IMG/VR virus record: IMGVR_UViG_3300009129_000047
Coordinates: 1 to 36,121 of that record
Source of the DNA: a virus
Direction: 5' to 3' (one strand)
DNA: 36,121 bases
Position numbers and translations under genes: made by a program
Notes under the pieces: generated by a model
The model's database searches: none
Told to the model about the DNA's origin: nothing
The model's input: the letters and a program-made list of their open reading frames with translations, nothing else
In this document: one piece after another, positions 2,384 to 23,529 of the stretch
How the letters are laid out: each line of letters begins with the position of its first letter
Position numbering within the stretch: the first letter of the stretch is position 1

Positions 2384-4051
2384 ATGATTTTAGACCGTAT
2401 TTTTGGAACTGAAGAGCGAAGCGGGTTAAAACAGCCCGCCGGTTGGTTAAGTGAACTTTTTGCCACTGGATCGAATTATAGTGGTGTTACTGTAAACGAA
2501 AGTAATGCAATGCAGCTTTCCGCCGTTGCTTCAGCAGTCAATGTAATTAGTAACGGTATAGCTTCCCAGGCTTTGCGGCCTTTCTCTAAAAAAGCCGAAG
2601 TCACAAACCTGGCGCAAGATCACGCAACGTATAAGCTACTTTCAAAGCGCGCCAATGATCACATGAGCGCTTTTACGTTTATTCAGCTTTTGCAATCTCA
2701 TGCTTTACGATGGGGTAATGGTTTTGCTTGGATCGATTGGGGCCAGACTGGAAAGCCAAAAGCGCTTTGGCCTCTTAACCCTTCGGCGACTCAACTGCTC
2801 AGCAAAAATGGCCGCTTAATTGTTGATACGCTAATCGATGGGAAACAATTCTCTTTCCCTTATGAACAAATAATTCATATAAAAGCGCTGGGCAGCGATG
2901 GCTTGAACGGTGTTTCGCCGATCCGCCAACATGCGGAAGAGCTAGGCATCCAAATTGCTGCGCAGAATTTCGGCGCTGAGTTTTTCGGAAACGGCGCAAC
3001 GGTTCAAGGTGTTATACAGCACCCAGGGAAGCTTACAGAAGAGGCCAGAAAGGCGATTAAAGATAGCTGGTCTAATGCCTTTAGTGGTTCTGGAAATCGC
3101 CACAAAACGCCAGTCTTGCCCGATGGCATGGACTATAAACGCGTAGGCATTCCACCGGAAGAGGCGCAATTCTTAGAAACTCGTAAATACGGTGATACGA
3201 AAATCGCCCAAATTTATAACGTGCCACCACATATGATTGGCGATCTTTCTAAAGCGACCTTTTCGAATATCACCGAAGAAACTATGAACTTTGTTCGCCG
3301 CACGTTAAATCCTTGGTTTGTGCAGTGGGAACAAGAGCTTGATTATAAATTGTTTTCGACCATCGAACAGAATCGGCTTTTTGTAAAATTCGATAAAGCG
3401 GATATTTTGAAAGGCACACCGAAAGAAGAGGCAGAAAAAGACGTTTCTTTGATTAATGGCGGCATTTTGACGAGAAACGAAGCGCGAACGGCGCGTGGTT
3501 TAAATCCTATTGATGGCTTGGACGAGATTTTAGTCCCGTTAAATATGGTTGAAATGTCTGAAGCGGTTAAAGCTCAAGAACCGGAGCCAGAGCCAGAGCC
3601 AGAGCCAGAGAGACAACCAGAGCCAGAGCCAGAGCCAGAAGCGCAAGAGCAAAACAGCATCGACTTTGGGCCGTTAGTTCACCGCTTTGCTGAACAGCTT
3701 ACGAACGCGGAAAAAGGCGTATCTAAAAAAGATCAGCTTTTAAAATGGCGGAATGGTGACGCGTCCAAATTTATCGAAAGGCACCTAAAGCCTTTGGCTA
3801 AATCTTTAAATAAGCCAGCGGTACTAGATGAGTTTACACGCCAGTATAACGACATTGTTTTAAAAGCCGGTTTGCTGCTTGATGAGCAAATGATTGCTAG
3901 AACTCTTGAATCATTAATCAATGAGACTGATGAAGGGGGTTTGTTTCGTTTGACCGATGACGAGCAAAGACGCTTAGCAATCGCAGAAGCGCAAAAGCTC
4001 TACCCTGAATTGTCGAAAGAAGCTATTGAAGGCTTGGTGAATGAATCCTGA
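2384..4051 (+). CDS. portal protein, HK97 gp3-like
   Basis: Dodecameric vertex ring through which DNA enters and leaves the capsid. The core (about residues 1-395) fits the HK97/lambda-type Phage_portal family: [20 protein letters not shown] near the N terminus, [18 protein letters not shown], and [21 protein letters not shown]-like text in the middle. At 555 residues it is roughly 130 longer than typical. The excess is a Glu-Pro repeat linker (about 399-424) and an alpha-helical C-terminal domain. It starts directly after the small membrane gene and overlaps the next gene by 11 bases. The tail could be a scaffold or protease-interaction region (inference). Confidence 0.94.
3579..3642 (+). 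repeat. GAGCCA hexamer repeat coding Glu-Pro linker in portal
   Basis: Tandem GAGCCA units, interrupted once by AGACAACCA, encode an alternating Glu-Pro stretch. Such a repeat is prone to length change by slippage in whole codons. It separates the conserved portal core from an extra C-terminal domain. Confidence 0.9.
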
Positions 4052-7028: not shown

Positions 7029-8234
7029 ATGAAACTACAAGATTTACTACAAGAACGCGGTCAACTTGCAACGCAAATGCGGGACATGCACAAAACCGCA
7101 GAAAAAGAAGACCGAGGCTTTAGCGCAGAAGAACGCGAAAGCTGGGACAAAATGTCGGATAAAATCGACGAGCTAGACGGTCGAATCAAAGCAGAAGAAC
7201 GCGCTAGTTCTTTATCGGGCTACACTGCTGAAGATATCGAAGCAATGAAGCCTGAAGCTGTTCGAGAAAAAGAAGCTTCAGAAATTACCCAAGGCGATGC
7301 TTTCAGCGCTTTGTTACGTTCCACTGAAGTTGGTATGAATGGCCTTTCTGCTGAACAAAAACAAGCTTTAACGCGTGCGCAAGCGAAAGGCACCGATTCT
7401 GCTGGTGGCTATCTTGCTCCTGATGAATTTGCTAATGAAATCATTGTGGCTATGCAAGCATACGGCGGCATTCGTGGCGCTGCTAATGTTATGTCAACGG
7501 CTACGGGTAACACTTTAGATATCCCGACCAATGACGACACTAGCAACACTGGTTCAATTCTTGCTGAAAACACGCAAGACAGCGAACAAGATTTAACATT
7601 CGGAAACGTTCAAATGGGTGCATATAAATACACCTCGAATATTATCCGCGTTCCTGTTGAGCTTCTTCAAGATTCGGCATTTGATCTTGACGCTTACATT
7701 TCAAGTGCATTCGCTGAACGACTGGGCCGTGCTACTGCTGCACATTACGCAACAGGTACAGGTTCAAGCCAGCCACAAGGCTTGAGCGCTGCAACTTCAG
7801 GCGTCACAGCGGCGGCAACTGGCGCAGTTACTTACAATGAATTGCTTGACCTTAAACACGCGGTAGATCCTGCTTATCGTGGTAACGGCTCATTTGTTAT
7901 GAATGACGCCACTTTCCTTGCTGTTAAAAAGCTTGTTGATGGTAACAGCCGCCCGTTATGGCAGCCTGACATTGCACAAGGTACCCCAGGCTTGTTAGAT
8001 GGTTCGCCGTTTATCATTGATCAGGGTATGGCATCTATGGGAGCTAATGCTAAGCCAATTGTCTTTGGTGATGTTTCTGGCTATTGGATACGTGACGTTT
8101 CCGGTATTACTGTTCGCCGTTTGGTTGAGCGTTACGCTGATTATCATCAGGTTGGCTTTGTCGCAATCATGCGCACAGATGGCGCGATTGTAAATGGCAG
8201 CGGCTTACGCGCCATGACCATGGCCGCATCTTAA
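7029..8234 (+). CDS. major capsid protein, HK97 fold
   Basis: Shell protein of 401 residues. Residues about 1-65 (MKLQDLLQERGQLATQM ... DELDGRIKAEE) form the charged coiled-coil delta/scaffold domain removed by the protease at 6376. The HK97 fold starts near AKGTDSAGGYLAPDEF and runs to GAIVNGSGLRAMTMAAS, both typical of Phage_capsid (PF05065). An upstream in-frame ATG at 7005 abuts the terminator T-run; the ATG at 7029 has AGGTGA 5 bases before it and gives the normal start, so it is preferred. Terminator hairpins flank the gene on both sides. Confidence 0.95.
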   Translation: MKLQDLLQERGQLATQMRDMHKTAEKEDRGFSAEERESWDKMSDKIDELDGRIKAEERASSLSGYTAEDIEAMKPEAVREKEASEITQGDAFSALLRSTEVGMNGLSAEQKQALTRAQAKGTDSAGGYLAPDEFANEIIVAMQAYGGIRGAANVMSTATGNTLDIPTNDDTSNTGSILAENTQDSEQDLTFGNVQMGAYKYTSNIIRVPVELLQDSAFDLDAYISSAFAERLGRATAAHYATGTGSSQPQGLSAATSGVTAAATGAVTYNELLDLKHAVDPAYRGNGSFVMNDATFLAVKKLVDGNSRPLWQPDIAQGTPGLLDGSPFIIDQGMASMGANAKPIVFGDVSGYWIRDVSGITVRRLVERYADYHQVGFVAIMRTDGAIVNGSGLRAMTMAAS

Positions 8235-19707: not shown

Positions 19708-20352
19708 TTAATGCACTGTGTAATTTAATGATTCAATGTTGCGGCGAGTTTCAGAAACAAAATCTAAAAATTTCGGAACGCGCTCGTCTATCATTTCAAA
19801 TTCGTCGCTGAGCTTTTCGGCGTAAATGCGACAAACATAAATTTGCTTATCTTGCGGGTAAGAAGGGCAGAAACTTATAAAATCCAGCCATTCGCGCCCC
19901 GTGTATTTTAAGTTTGCGTAACACTGCCATTTGTAAGTTGGATCGATTGATTGCCGCTTAACGTTGGCGTAATGAACTGGCGCAATTACAGATTTGATTT
20001 CAACCAAGCCGCAATCCAAAACCAAGCCATCTGGCGAGCAACCTATGAACTCGTCACAAAAGAAGCCGCCATTTTCAACAACACAAAATGTTTCTTCTTC
20101 GTATGCCATGCGTGCCAAAGGCTCTTGCTCGTGGCCGCGTTCGGTGTGAGCGTTGCTAAAGCCGCTTTCTAAAGGCTTGCCGGTAATCTGTTGTAAGGCT
20201 ATTTCAACAGCTAGTTTTTTAGCGCCATCACCAAAAGCCTTGCCATAGTTAGCCATAACTTTCCCCATGCTAGAACTAGTCAGTAAACCGGCTCGCATGT
20301 TTAGCCATGTATCAGTGTTTTGCTCTATGTCGTGAAAATTAAGTGTCTGCAT
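19708..20352 (-). CDS. YqaJ-type viral exonuclease (lambda Exo-like)
   Basis: A 5'-3' double-strand DNA exonuclease of 214 residues that makes 3' single strands for recombination. The PD-(D/E)XK core is visible: GLLTSSSMGKVM near residue 22, RGHEQEPLARMAY (E77), GCSPDGLV (D108), LVEIKSV (E118, K120) and KWQCYANLKYTG (Q143), as in the YqaJ/lambda Exo family. Length fits. It overlaps the upstream gene by 14 bases, suggesting those two act together, and it lies next to ssb. Confidence 0.92.
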   Translation of the reverse strand: MQTLNFHDIEQNTDTWLNMRAGLLTSSSMGKVMANYGKAFGDGAKKLAVEIALQQITGKPLESGFSNAHTERGHEQEPLARMAYEEETFCVVENGGFFCDEFIGCSPDGLVLDCGLVEIKSVIAPVHYANVKRQSIDPTYKWQCYANLKYTGREWLDFISFCPSYPQDKQIYVCRIYAEKLSDEFEMIDERVPKFLDFVSETRRNIESLNYTVH

Positions 20353-20863
20353 TTTGATTACACTCTGAAATAATCATTTGTTGGTGTTCGTCGGAAATTT
20401 CACAACGTTCCAGCACTGCATTAAAATGTCCATCTCTTTTGTATGCGGCTTTAGCGTTAGCCCAAAGCTTTGCGTTTTCTGGCGTAACTGATTTCTTCTG
20501 TTGCGCAGGTGGTTGCGGGCTAATCCGCAAGCCCTCGACAGTGTCACGACCAAAACGAACATTAGAATCAACATAGATAGTCACTTTGACTTCGTTCCAA
20601 TCGTCTATAAATGGTGACCCTGTTAGCTCTTTCATGACCTTTGAGTTGTGAGCATTTAAGATCATTGGTTTTAATGGCTCGCCTTGGCGTAACTCTTTTT
20701 CAACAAAGTAAGCCGTATTAAATGCGTCTTTTGTTTTCTTTGTTTGGTCGCCGTTCAGCTTTACGCTGTCAATAGTAAGAATGGTCGGCCCAACAATATC
20801 TGCGCTTGACAAATAAGGGGAGTTAAAAGCTTTTCTGTAATGTGTTTTTTGTGTTTCGTTCAT
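20339..20863 (-). CDS. conserved phage protein paired with the exonuclease, possible ssDNA-binding partner
   Basis: A 174-residue protein with the lines KAFNSPYLSSADIVGPTILT, PLKPMILNAHNSKVMKELTG, then DDWNEVKVTIYVDSNVRFGR and EGLRISPQPP. This 'KPMILN..NSK.L..L.GS...DW....VT.YV...V..G....G.RI.P' pattern is common in phages beside exonucleases or annealing proteins; its role has not been shown. A compact beta barrel with a helical tail (TPENAKLWANAKAAYKRDG) is likely. No RecT, Beta or Erf signature is present. It starts as ATGA over the previous stop and overlaps the exonuclease start. Confidence 0.72.
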   Translation of the reverse strand: MNETQKTHYRKAFNSPYLSSADIVGPTILTIDSVKLNGDQTKKTKDAFNTAYFVEKELRQGEPLKPMILNAHNSKVMKELTGSPFIDDWNEVKVTIYVDSNVRFGRDTVEGLRISPQPPAQQKKSVTPENAKLWANAKAAYKRDGHFNAVLERCEISDEHQQMIISECNQNADT

Positions 20864-21708: not shown

Positions 21709-21737
21709 AATATAACAGTACGTTGTATTTTGGTCAA
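21709..21737 (-). promoter_or_regulatory. leftward early promoter (PL-like)
   Basis: Reading leftward: TTGACC (21737-21732), 17-base spacer, TATATT (21714-21709). Near-consensus sigma70 promoter aimed at the genes from 21673 down to int. Predicted start near 21702. Confidence 0.85.
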
Positions 21738-21765
21738 CACGAAACGTGATATTGTGTGTGATATT
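21738..21765. promoter_or_regulatory. operator-like repeats upstream of PL
   Basis: CACGAAACGTG, an 11-base inverted repeat with 3-base centre (21738-21748), abuts the -35 box. Two copies of GTGATATT (21746-21753 and 21758-21765) repeat the half-site seen at the repressor/cro region in reverse orientation. Likely repressor or Cro binding sites. Confidence 0.65.
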
Positions 21766-21833
21766 ATTTCAAACGGTTGTTTGGATCGGGCTTTTATTGG
21801 CTTGAATGAGTGTTATTGCCTAATTGGATTTGC

Positions 21834-21839
21834 TATAAC
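21834..21839 (+). promoter_or_regulatory. extended -10 promoter for lipoprotein gene
   Basis: TGCTATAAC gives an extended -10 element (TGN then TATAAC). A matching -35 is poor (TGTTAT about 17 bases upstream). Position fits an independent promoter for the moron gene at 21871, 32 bases downstream. Confidence 0.5.
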
Positions 21840-21870
21840 AAAAGCTTACTAATCTAAGGGGATTGTTGTT

Positions 21871-22476
21871 ATGAATAGGTTTTTCTTAATGGTGTGTGTT
21901 TTTTGGCTCGCTGGTTGTGCAAATATGGCGGATTCTATGAGCGCTTTAGGCGGGGTTGGGGTGATAAGTGAAAAGGTTTCTGACTTTGATGGGTCTAGGA
22001 ATGTGAAATTGTCTCCCGCGTTCCTTTATAACCCAAATGCAGGCTTGCTTGGAATGAACACAAGGCTTGGCGCATTTTGGAATAGCGAAGCGCCTGGATT
22101 TGTTGCTCTCATTTTAGAAAACGATTCTGTATCGGGGTATGGTATTTCTTACATAAATTATGAAAGTATTGATATTAATATCGATGGGAAAAAGCTCTCG
22201 TTTGATACAGATGGTGGCACTAAGTTTGATAATAGCGGGTATAATACAGTCTCACGGACGATTTACACTAACAGTAAAAATTCTGCTACGGTTCCCGTTG
22301 AGACGTTAAAAGCAATGATAAACGCTAAAGATTGTCGGCTGAGAATTAATACTGGCAATGGTTATGAAACCGCTTACTTTTCAGAAGAAAAGACACCCGG
22401 CGGAAACAGCACCGCCAAGCACTTTTTGAGGAAGTTTATGGATAAAGTTGAAGGAAACAGCGCCGAAAGTATTTAG
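21871..22476 (+). CDS. lipoprotein, probable lysogenic conversion gene (moron)
   Basis: A 201-residue secreted lipoprotein: MNRFFLMVCVFWLAGC is a short signal peptide with lipobox LAGC (Cys16). Residue +2 is Ala, not Asp, so sorting to the outer membrane is expected. The mature part is beta-rich (VSGYGISYINYESIDINIDG, KKLSFDTDGG) with no recognised family. AAGGGGA lies 8 bases before the ATG. It has its own extended -10 promoter and a terminator, and lies opposite to both flanking genes, between the PL promoter and the repressor. Phage lipoproteins in such places can block superinfection or alter host surface (inference). Confidence 0.8.
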   Translation: MNRFFLMVCVFWLAGCANMADSMSALGGVGVISEKVSDFDGSRNVKLSPAFLYNPNAGLLGMNTRLGAFWNSEAPGFVALILENDSVSGYGISYINYESIDINIDGKKLSFDTDGGTKFDNSGYNTVSRTIYTNSKNSATVPVETLKAMINAKDCRLRINTGNGYETAYFSEEKTPGGNSTAKHFLRKFMDKVEGNSAESI

Positions 22477-22486
22477 TGTTGACGCA

Positions 22487-22508
22487 AAAGCCCCTTAGTT
22501 GGGGCTTT
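22487..22508. terminator. bidirectional terminator between lipoprotein and repressor genes
   Basis: AAAGCCCC (22487-22494), loop TTAGTT, GGGGCTTT (22501-22508). Eight-pair stem; T-rich on both strands (leftward GGGGCTTTTG). It should end both convergent transcripts. Confidence 0.8.
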
Positions 22509-22510
22509 GC

Positions 22511-23212
22511 TTAGTTGACCTCGCCACCACGCCATACCACCCGGCCTATAAAATCTATCTCCTTGGCTTCTTCTTCTGAAAATTCCCTATCAGAAAAAGC
22601 CGGGTTGTCAGATGCAAGCAAGACCTCGCCAAACTCTTGGACATATACTCTTTTCACTAATGGTTTTTCTTTAAAAATCAGAGCATAAACAGCGCCGTTT
22701 TCTATTTCGTTTATGTGCGATTCTCTTTTATCCACTAAAATTACGTCGCTTTGGCTTAGTGTCGGCTCCATTGATTTGCCGTTAACCATGGCAACTTTAA
22801 GCATTGACACATCTAAGCCCATGTATTCTATCCAGTCGGCCCTAAAATTAAGCGATTTAAGGAAGGCTGGCTCTTTCCCTAGCCGTGCGGCGTTCGCGTT
22901 CCCGGCATGATAAAAAGCATCAATCATAGGTATATCAACAAATGCGTTGTAATCAGCGATAGCAATATTTTCACTGAGCGGCAAAGGAATTGTGTCGCCG
23001 AATATAATTTGATCTACAGTTGACTTTAATGCCTTTGCTATTGTTAAAGCATCATCATAATTTGGCGACCGTTTGCCGCGCTCATAATTTGACACTCTCC
23101 CTTGGCTTTCCCACCCACAAAGCTCTGTCAGTTGCTCTTGAGTTAAGTCTAGGGCTTTTCGTCGTTCTTTTATTCTTTCGCCAATTGCTTGGGCTTGTGT
23201 TTTTGCATCCAT
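22511..23212 (-). CDS. CI/LexA-type prophage repressor with S24 peptidase domain
   Basis: Maintains lysogeny by blocking early promoters. The 233-residue protein has an N-terminal HTH (ERIKERRKALDLTQEQLTEL, then CGWESQGRVSNYERGKRSP) at about 12-50, a linker, and a C-terminal S24 domain. The predicted self-cleavage bond is Ala103-Gly104 (FYHAGNA). Catalytic Ser147 sits in NGKSMEPT and Lys187 in PLVKRVY. All parts for RecA-stimulated cleavage are present, so SOS induction is expected. It diverges from the cro-like gene; operators fill the gap. Confidence 0.95.
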   Translation of the reverse strand: MDAKTQAQAIGERIKERRKALDLTQEQLTELCGWESQGRVSNYERGKRSPNYDDALTIAKALKSTVDQIIFGDTIPLPLSENIAIADYNAFVDIPMIDAFYHAGNANAARLGKEPAFLKSLNFRADWIEYMGLDVSMLKVAMVNGKSMEPTLSQSDVILVDKRESHINEIENGAVYALIFKEKPLVKRVYVQEFGEVLLASDNPAFSDREFSEEEAKEIDFIGRVVWRGGEVN

Positions 23213-23221
23213 GTCTTACGT

Positions 23222-23293
23222 ATATCACACCTAAAATATTTTTCCTCGACGTTATGTGATTGACAAATATCACGTTGTGGTATTTAATATCAC
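23222..23293. promoter_or_regulatory. operator region between repressor and cro-like gene
   Basis: Repeats of the half-site (A)ATATCAC lie at 23222-23228, 23266-23273 and 23286-23293. The middle one forms a 19-base near-palindrome, AATATCACGTTGTGGTATT (23266-23284, one mismatch), that fills the spacer of the rightward promoter. The same half-site occurs at PL, so one regulator probably controls both. Confidence 0.75.
23260..23288 (+). promoter_or_regulatory. rightward early promoter (PR-like)
   Basis: TTGACA (23260-23265), 17-base spacer, TTTAAT (23283-23288). Consensus -35 and 5 of 6 at -10. Predicted start near 23295, 19 bases before the cro-like ATG. The near-palindromic operator occupies the spacer, so binding should block polymerase. 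Confidence 0.82.
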
Positions 23294-23313: not shown

Positions 23314-23529
23314 ATGGAAAACCAAATCAAGTTCTACCGCCGCCAACTGGATATGACCCAGCAAGACCTTGCGTTCGAGCTAGGCCAAAAGCAATCGTCA
23401 ATATCAAATTATGAAAACGGGCAAAGACAACCGGACATCGAAACAGCGAAAAGCATAATTGACGCTTTTTCAAAGCGTGGCTTGTCAGTAGGTCTTGATG
23501 ATCTTTTTCAAGCATCGGCGGCGATTTGA
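23314..23529 (+). CDS. Cro-like HTH regulator
   Basis: A 71-residue protein, essentially one XRE-type HTH domain: FYRRQLDMTQQDLAFELGQ, then KQSSISNYENGQRQPDIETA. The recognition helix is QSSISNYENG. It is the first gene after the rightward promoter with GAGAAG ahead of the ATG. By place it should compete with the repressor for the shared operators and favour lytic growth, although its sequence is XRE-like rather than lambda Cro-like. Confidence 0.85.
   Translation: MENQIKFYRRQLDMTQQDLAFELGQKQSSISNYENGQRQPDIETAKSIIDAFSKRGLSVGLDDLFQASAAI

Follow-up and report, generated by a model that had tools for sequence, protein, structure and literature searches.

What does a temperate phage gain from a secreted lipoprotein encoded in the middle of its immunity region? 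The question is raised by a 36,121-nt viral DNA (IMG/VR record IMGVR_UViG_3300009129_000047, analyzed in full and called the window below), in which a 201-codon ORF starting with ATG sits at exactly 21871-22476 on the plus strand. An earlier note, based on the letters alone, took this ORF for an autonomous outer-membrane lipoprotein moron that has its own extended -10 promoter and bidirectional terminator and belongs to no recognizable family. We found this account partly right: the gene and its lipobox are confirmed, the extended -10 is weak, and a family exists.

The lipoprotein gene and its neighbors in the immunity region

When the surrounding kilobase was shuffled 500 times by a Markov model, no ORF starting with ATG exceeded 175 codons, fewer than in the lipoprotein ORF; codon usage was not informative on the reading frame of the latter. 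Together with its homologues, described below, the ORF represents a real gene (Table 1). Its product begins with MNRFFLMVCVFWLAGC followed by AN, in which a basic n-region leads into a hydrophobic h-region and then into the lipobox LAGC, the latter followed by Ala at +2 as the note had read. Under the +2 rule, this Ala predicts sorting to the outer membrane, and the protein, having a lipobox within its type II signal peptide and a +2 residue other than Asp, is a predicted outer-membrane lipoprotein. The mature form has 186 residues, with C155 as the sole Cys besides Cys16, the predicted site of lipidation.

Table 1. Features of the lipoprotein locus and the adjoining immunity region of the window
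Feature	Position	Strand	Basis
PL-like promoter of leftward early genes	21709..21737	-	TTGACC-17-TATATT with TG
GTGATATT repeat pair at PL (21746-21753, 21758-21765), candidate repressor operators	21746..21765		octamer count
Candidate extended -10 TGCTATAAC, without -35; not significant alone	21831..21839	+	motif count, matrix scan
Ribosome-binding site AAGGGG, about ten bases 5' of ATG	21856..21861	+	sequence
Lipoprotein gene, PHROG 7678 family	21871..22476	+	ORF, profile match, homologues
Signal peptide and predicted lipid-modified Cys16 (LAGC, then A)	21871..21918	+	sequence; lipobox conserved in PHROG 7678 family
Hairpin between the stop codons of the lipoprotein and repressor genes, which are convergent; probably a bidirectional terminator	22484..22510		folding
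CI-type repressor (HTH_3 and Peptidase_S24)	22511..23212	-	domain matches
GTGATATT repeat pair at PR (23266-23273, 23286-23293, minus strand)	23266..23293		octamer count
Cro-like HTH protein	23314..23529	+	domain match

The gene does lie between PL and the repressor, as the note had it: it is divergent from the PL-like promoter, which drives the leftward recombination genes, and convergent with the S24-type repressor gene. Because both flanking genes are transcribed the opposite way, a rightward promoter is needed if the lipoprotein gene is used. The proposed extended -10, TGCTATAAC, is present but no better than chance, as the window has 40 sites within one mismatch of TGNTATAAT where 39.6 would be expected, and the sigma-70 matrix score upstream of the gene is not significant (p 0.38). 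Thus, the promoter is demanded by the orientation of the genes and not demonstrated by their sequence, and we do not consider it convincing.

The downstream end of the gene is better defined. Its stop codon is separated from that of the repressor gene by 34 bp, and this gap holds a hairpin of -19.9 kcal/mol (z -3.5) on the plus strand and -16.7 kcal/mol (z -2.6) on the minus strand. Since the hairpin is more stable than shuffled sequences on both strands, a bidirectional terminator is plausible, as previously suggested; its T-runs are short, and it is missing from the list produced by a strict terminator scan.

The octamer GTGATATT occurs in six exact copies in the window, compared to 1.1 expected, and the two pairs at PL and PR are good candidates for repressor operators. 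As the PL pair lies about 65 bp upstream of the -10 candidate of the lipoprotein gene, bound repressor need not silence this gene. The two other copies (1191-1198 and 3266-3273), inside the terminase and portal genes, are probably due to chance, though they match the candidate operators.

An empty-site comparison around the locus found that the sole contig sharing the repressor of the window is identical there, and that phages with the same recombination genes (L112-L131) carry a different immunity region. Among the early genes of the window, 20339-20863 encodes a 174-aa protein of PHROG 21613 and adjoins the exonuclease gene; these two proteins are common to 20 otherwise different viral contigs at 62-74% identity and probably form a recombination module.

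A lipoprotein family shared by phages and plasmids

Residues 32-196 of the window protein match positions 25-173 of the 174-position profile of PHROG 7678 (E 8e-19), and plasmid proteins found by tblastn are 41-46% identical to it, which overturns the view that no family is recognizable. Leaving aside the Glo control, six representatives were tested, and every one matches the same PHROG; they cover plasmid and phage members, those of Moraxella and Acinetobacter matching at 1e-65 to 1e-80. PHROG 7678 is itself a family of unknown function, and databases assign none to this lipoprotein family: scans of Pfam, NCBIfam, and PADLOC produced no credible hit, Pfam having no family for the window protein and none convincing for 17 members, and a defense-family search found no match, nor was there one to a characterized exclusion protein.

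Relatives of the gene are carried by large Shewanella plasmids and by small plasmids of 2.6 to 6.3 kb, mostly mobilizable, from Salmonella, E. coli, Klebsiella, Enterobacter, and Hafnia. The latter include plasmid pK of S. Enteritidis, whose gene product is 44% identical to that of the window; among the papers searched, none dealt with pK and its phage phenotype. Profile searches added a gammaproteobacterial metagenome-assembled genome, Shewanella indica, Pseudoalteromonas caenipelagi, two Mu-like viral contigs, and many Acinetobacter and Moraxella prophages, with Pseudomonas phage PaMx74 and Janthinobacterium phage Donnerlittchen as distant members, both carrying the gene near a DNA-ligase gene. 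The family is sporadic in genomes, being found in 5 of 296 from the order to which Pseudoalteromonas belongs, 6 of 108 from the genus itself, and 2 of 398 across the phylum; only 4 of 5,426 E. coli genomes carry it, all four on plasmids. Its distribution is that of an accessory gene.

The small carriers in Salmonella, E. coli, Klebsiella, and Hafnia are MOBP plasmids, in which the gene adjoins Mbe mobilization/exclusion genes, and conjugative systems use exclusion lipoproteins of the TraT/Eex type. The lipoprotein could therefore exclude mobile elements or toxins other than phages, either as a conjugation entry exclusion factor or as a bacteriocin immunity factor that covers a receptor. We regard such a role as improbable, since the small plasmids have no conjugative machinery of their own that would need protection, no colicin gene lies beside the lipoprotein gene among the plasmids inspected, and the phage members are located in immunity or tail regions rather than beside transfer genes.

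A lipobox is present in 33 of 35 non-redundant members, a count that includes one box reading LHGC (L075), and Asp at +2 in none. Three Moraxella members (L004:4920-5465, L035:7920-8465, and L017:7920-8465) have a type I signal peptide (TPSFA-KT) and lack the Cys of the lipobox; they resemble soluble periplasmic proteins, so that the lipid anchor is not universal. A tree splits the family, with moderate support, into a longer type of about 200 aa, found in plasmids, Mu-like phages, Shewanella, and Pseudoalteromonas, and a shorter type linked to tape-measure genes. The window protein is placed loosely near the former; it shares the profile match with PHROG 7678 but is of the longer type, not of the shorter branch.

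AlphaFold predicts a beta-sandwich with a C-terminal helix both for the window protein (pLDDT 83) and for the short branch (pLDDT 88). The structure search that the note had recommended for remote homologues returned, by VIA-align, the same best solved structure for both models, the Bartonella invasion-associated protein B, IalB (PDB 3dtd; Z 8.5 and 8.3, 129-130 residues), at scores barely higher than those that chance arrangements often reach but clear of the next rows (Z 5.3-5.8, mostly Ig-like). Foldseek E-values of the models are not significant, and the match has no sequence support: a sequence search of solved structures gave noise only, identity is 9%, and homology to the IalB family (PF06776), which is a bacterial chromosomal family, was not supported, with an hhalign probability of 0.2% against 25 IalB sequences and no Pfam hit. 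With neither Foldseek nor profile-profile comparison supporting membership, we call the fold IalB-like and do not claim that the protein belongs to this family.

The likeness to an envelope protein named for invasion favors the main rival explanation of the gene, namely that it is a lysogenic-conversion fitness factor whose product aids the host at its surface, in host interaction, or under stress, with no effect on other phages. Bor and Lom of phage lambda are described as such host-benefit envelope factors. Plasmid data point the same way: plasmids of similar type have been linked with fitness in poultry litter (PMC6118388), and a "macrophage stimulating factor" that could be the PHROG 7678 gene is listed on 4.7-kb ColE1-like Salmonella plasmids (PMC6118388, PMC7341144). 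However, the likeness to IalB is one of fold only, and members are known from marine and environmental bacteria as well as from virulent-looking phages, a range with no animal host in common. The exchange of unrelated lipoproteins at one phage site, described next, also suits an arms race better, and on balance we consider a pure fitness role unlikely.

Moron cassettes and lipoprotein exchange at the tape-measure site

In phages other than PaMx74 and Donnerlittchen, relatives of the window gene lie beside repressor genes or upstream of tape-measure genes. The repressor-linked setting is seen in the two contigs that we call Mu-like from our reading of their transposase and ATPase ORFs: the gene of L019 (start at 7950) has the same orientation as a CI-type repressor gene and overlaps the ORF that comes after it, and that of L020 follows an HTH repressor and a second lipoprotein. 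This second predicted lipoprotein (L020:7552-7935, 127 aa, LSAC), between the repressor and the PHROG 7678 gene, is unrelated. In phages of Acinetobacter and Moraxella and in L021, the gene mostly lies 53 to 177 bp 5' of a tape-measure ORF of 945 to 1,677 aa.

In the Acinetobacter loci, a hairpin with a T-run (ACCACCTTCGGGTGGTTTT) precedes the lipoprotein gene, a sigma-70-like promoter lies about 30 nt 5' of its ATG (p at most 0.01 in five of six loci), and a second hairpin with a T-run (the GCGGGTTTTTT terminator) follows it, 5' of the tape-measure ribosome-binding site. The gene of these phages is its own terminator-promoter-gene-terminator cassette, the textbook anatomy of a moron. Promoters in the Moraxella loci score at p 0.03-0.04. 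In L021, the best promoter candidate is followed by a hairpin with a T-run (TACCCTCAAATATGAGGGTATTTTT, L021:7910-7943) that runs right up to the start codon of the lipoprotein gene and is possibly an attenuator. The description of the window gene as an autonomous outer-membrane lipoprotein moron is supported mainly by its relatives, through their lipobox, cassettes, polymorphism, and adjacency to repressors, and not by the promoter of the window; moron anatomy is well supported and, in our judgment, very probably correct.

That three phage lineages have the gene in a fixed place 5' of the tape-measure gene could suggest that the lipoprotein takes part in tail assembly. However, it is absent from 45 of 46 Acinetobacter phage records with a shared tape-measure gene, and the gene has its own promoter and terminators at that site, a secretion signal, and relatives on plasmids and next to repressors. 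We rejected a structural role in the tail on this presence/absence pattern; it is largely refuted and has very little chance of being right.

The single record with a PHROG 7678 lipoprotein among these 46 has sister phages with three lipoprotein types unrelated to it at the same site. Inspection of 13 phages there found a predicted lipoprotein in nine, belonging to four unrelated mature types. The DNA of the type in Ab1656-2, PhabP_R1, and LPAB65 is 91.5% identical to the PHROG 7678 gene along 142 nt, a stretch that comprises the terminator, promoter, and signal peptide and stops two codons past the lipobox Cys. The Ftm type is 89% identical to another PHROG 7678 allele along 100 nt, and this stretch stops at the same place. 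At this Acinetobacter site, the terminator, promoter, and signal peptide are kept constant and the mature domain is exchanged. Keeping the lipid-anchored export format while swapping the mature domain fits what is expected of an arms race.

The interchangeable lipoproteins 5' of the tape-measure gene in Acinetobacter Vieuvirus phages are located at L138:1428-2108, L142:1608-2129, L137:1861-2238, and L046:7914-8423. HicAB-type and other toxin-antitoxin-like pairs also occur at the site (L137:262-941, L146:1386-1790, and L138:557-1323), making it a general cargo hotspot.

Published RNA-seq of A. baumannii prophages (PMC3978071) includes a "putative lipoprotein" of CP9, A1S_3759, 5' of the tape-measure gene, which was induced 4.4-fold while the flanking A1S_2019 and A1S_2018 rose 8.1- and 9.2-fold. 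This contrast would fit basal expression in the lysogen, but A1S_3759 may instead represent the unrelated 125-aa type seen in phage B1251, and a second case in the same study, A1S_3701, is without the contrast on its downstream side. With family membership uncertain and the A1S_3701 contrast absent, we did not count these data.

Superinfection exclusion as the proposed function

Known phage lipoproteins of the same format provide the closest analogies. Ltp of Streptococcus phage TP-J34 is a lipoprotein of the lysogeny module that blocks DNA injection (PMC3952083). Like the window gene, it is a moron-like lipoprotein gene beside a repressor gene, but its product is a Gram-positive membrane protein of another family, the Ltp family having no Pfam match to the window protein, and the window gene is convergent to its repressor gene. 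T5 Llp is a periplasmic lipoprotein that blocks adsorption by jamming the receptor FhuA (PMC9586334). Llp and Cor of T1/phi80-type phages are phage-encoded lipoproteins on the periplasmic face of the outer membrane, the location predicted for the window protein; they differ in being lipoproteins of about 60 residues with an intramolecular disulfide, whereas the window protein has 186 mature residues, one extra Cys, and a beta-sandwich. HK97 gp15 and Glo of Vibrio phage K139 are likewise moron or lysogeny-module exclusion genes. HK97 gp15 is a predicted inner-membrane protein (PMC10883804); Glo is periplasmic, its gene lies within the repressor operon, and it was rejected as a homologue for lack of sequence similarity to the window protein.

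We propose that the window gene is a moron, a self-contained piece of cargo inserted in the immunity region, and that it would encode a secreted, lipid-anchored outer-membrane protein that faces the periplasm and has an IalB-like beta-sandwich. Since the candidate operators at PL and PR leave its own start region free, the protein is most likely made in the lysogen of the window phage, where it would most likely shield its carrier from superinfecting phages by acting in the envelope. It may do so by hitting a receptor from the periplasmic side, as Llp does FhuA, or by blocking the DNA-entry step, as Ltp does by acting on the tape-measure protein. The case for exclusion is built on an envelope lipoprotein carried by competing mobile elements, its placement in immunity regions or moron cassettes, the exchange of mature domains, and the fact that known proteins of the same format, Ltp and Llp, exclude phages. 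Against it, carriage by plasmids and by PaMx74 and Donnerlittchen also fits any generic envelope benefit, defense-family searches gave no match, the window promoter has no statistical support, and the lipid anchor is not shared by all members. Weighing these, we give a probability of about one half to the reading that the lipoprotein, expressed in the lysogen and facing the periplasm, keeps competing phages from entering in the manner of Ltp or Llp, from whose families it differs.

The window gene represents a new family within a kind of phage cargo that is already known. More tentatively, PHROG 7678 might be an unrecognized class of superinfection-exclusion lipoproteins with an IalB-like fold, shared by temperate phages and small mobilizable plasmids and representing, in Acinetobacter phages, one of several interchangeable mature domains that are swapped downstream of an unchanging promoter and signal peptide beside the tape-measure gene. 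If exclusion is the true function, a widespread unannotated family would explain part of the phage resistance of its carriers, meaning the small plasmids of Salmonella and E. coli and the prophages of Acinetobacter and Moraxella. It would also bring a new fold to the small set of lipoproteins that are known to stop phages from entering, and the Acinetobacter site would offer a ready collection of such proteins.
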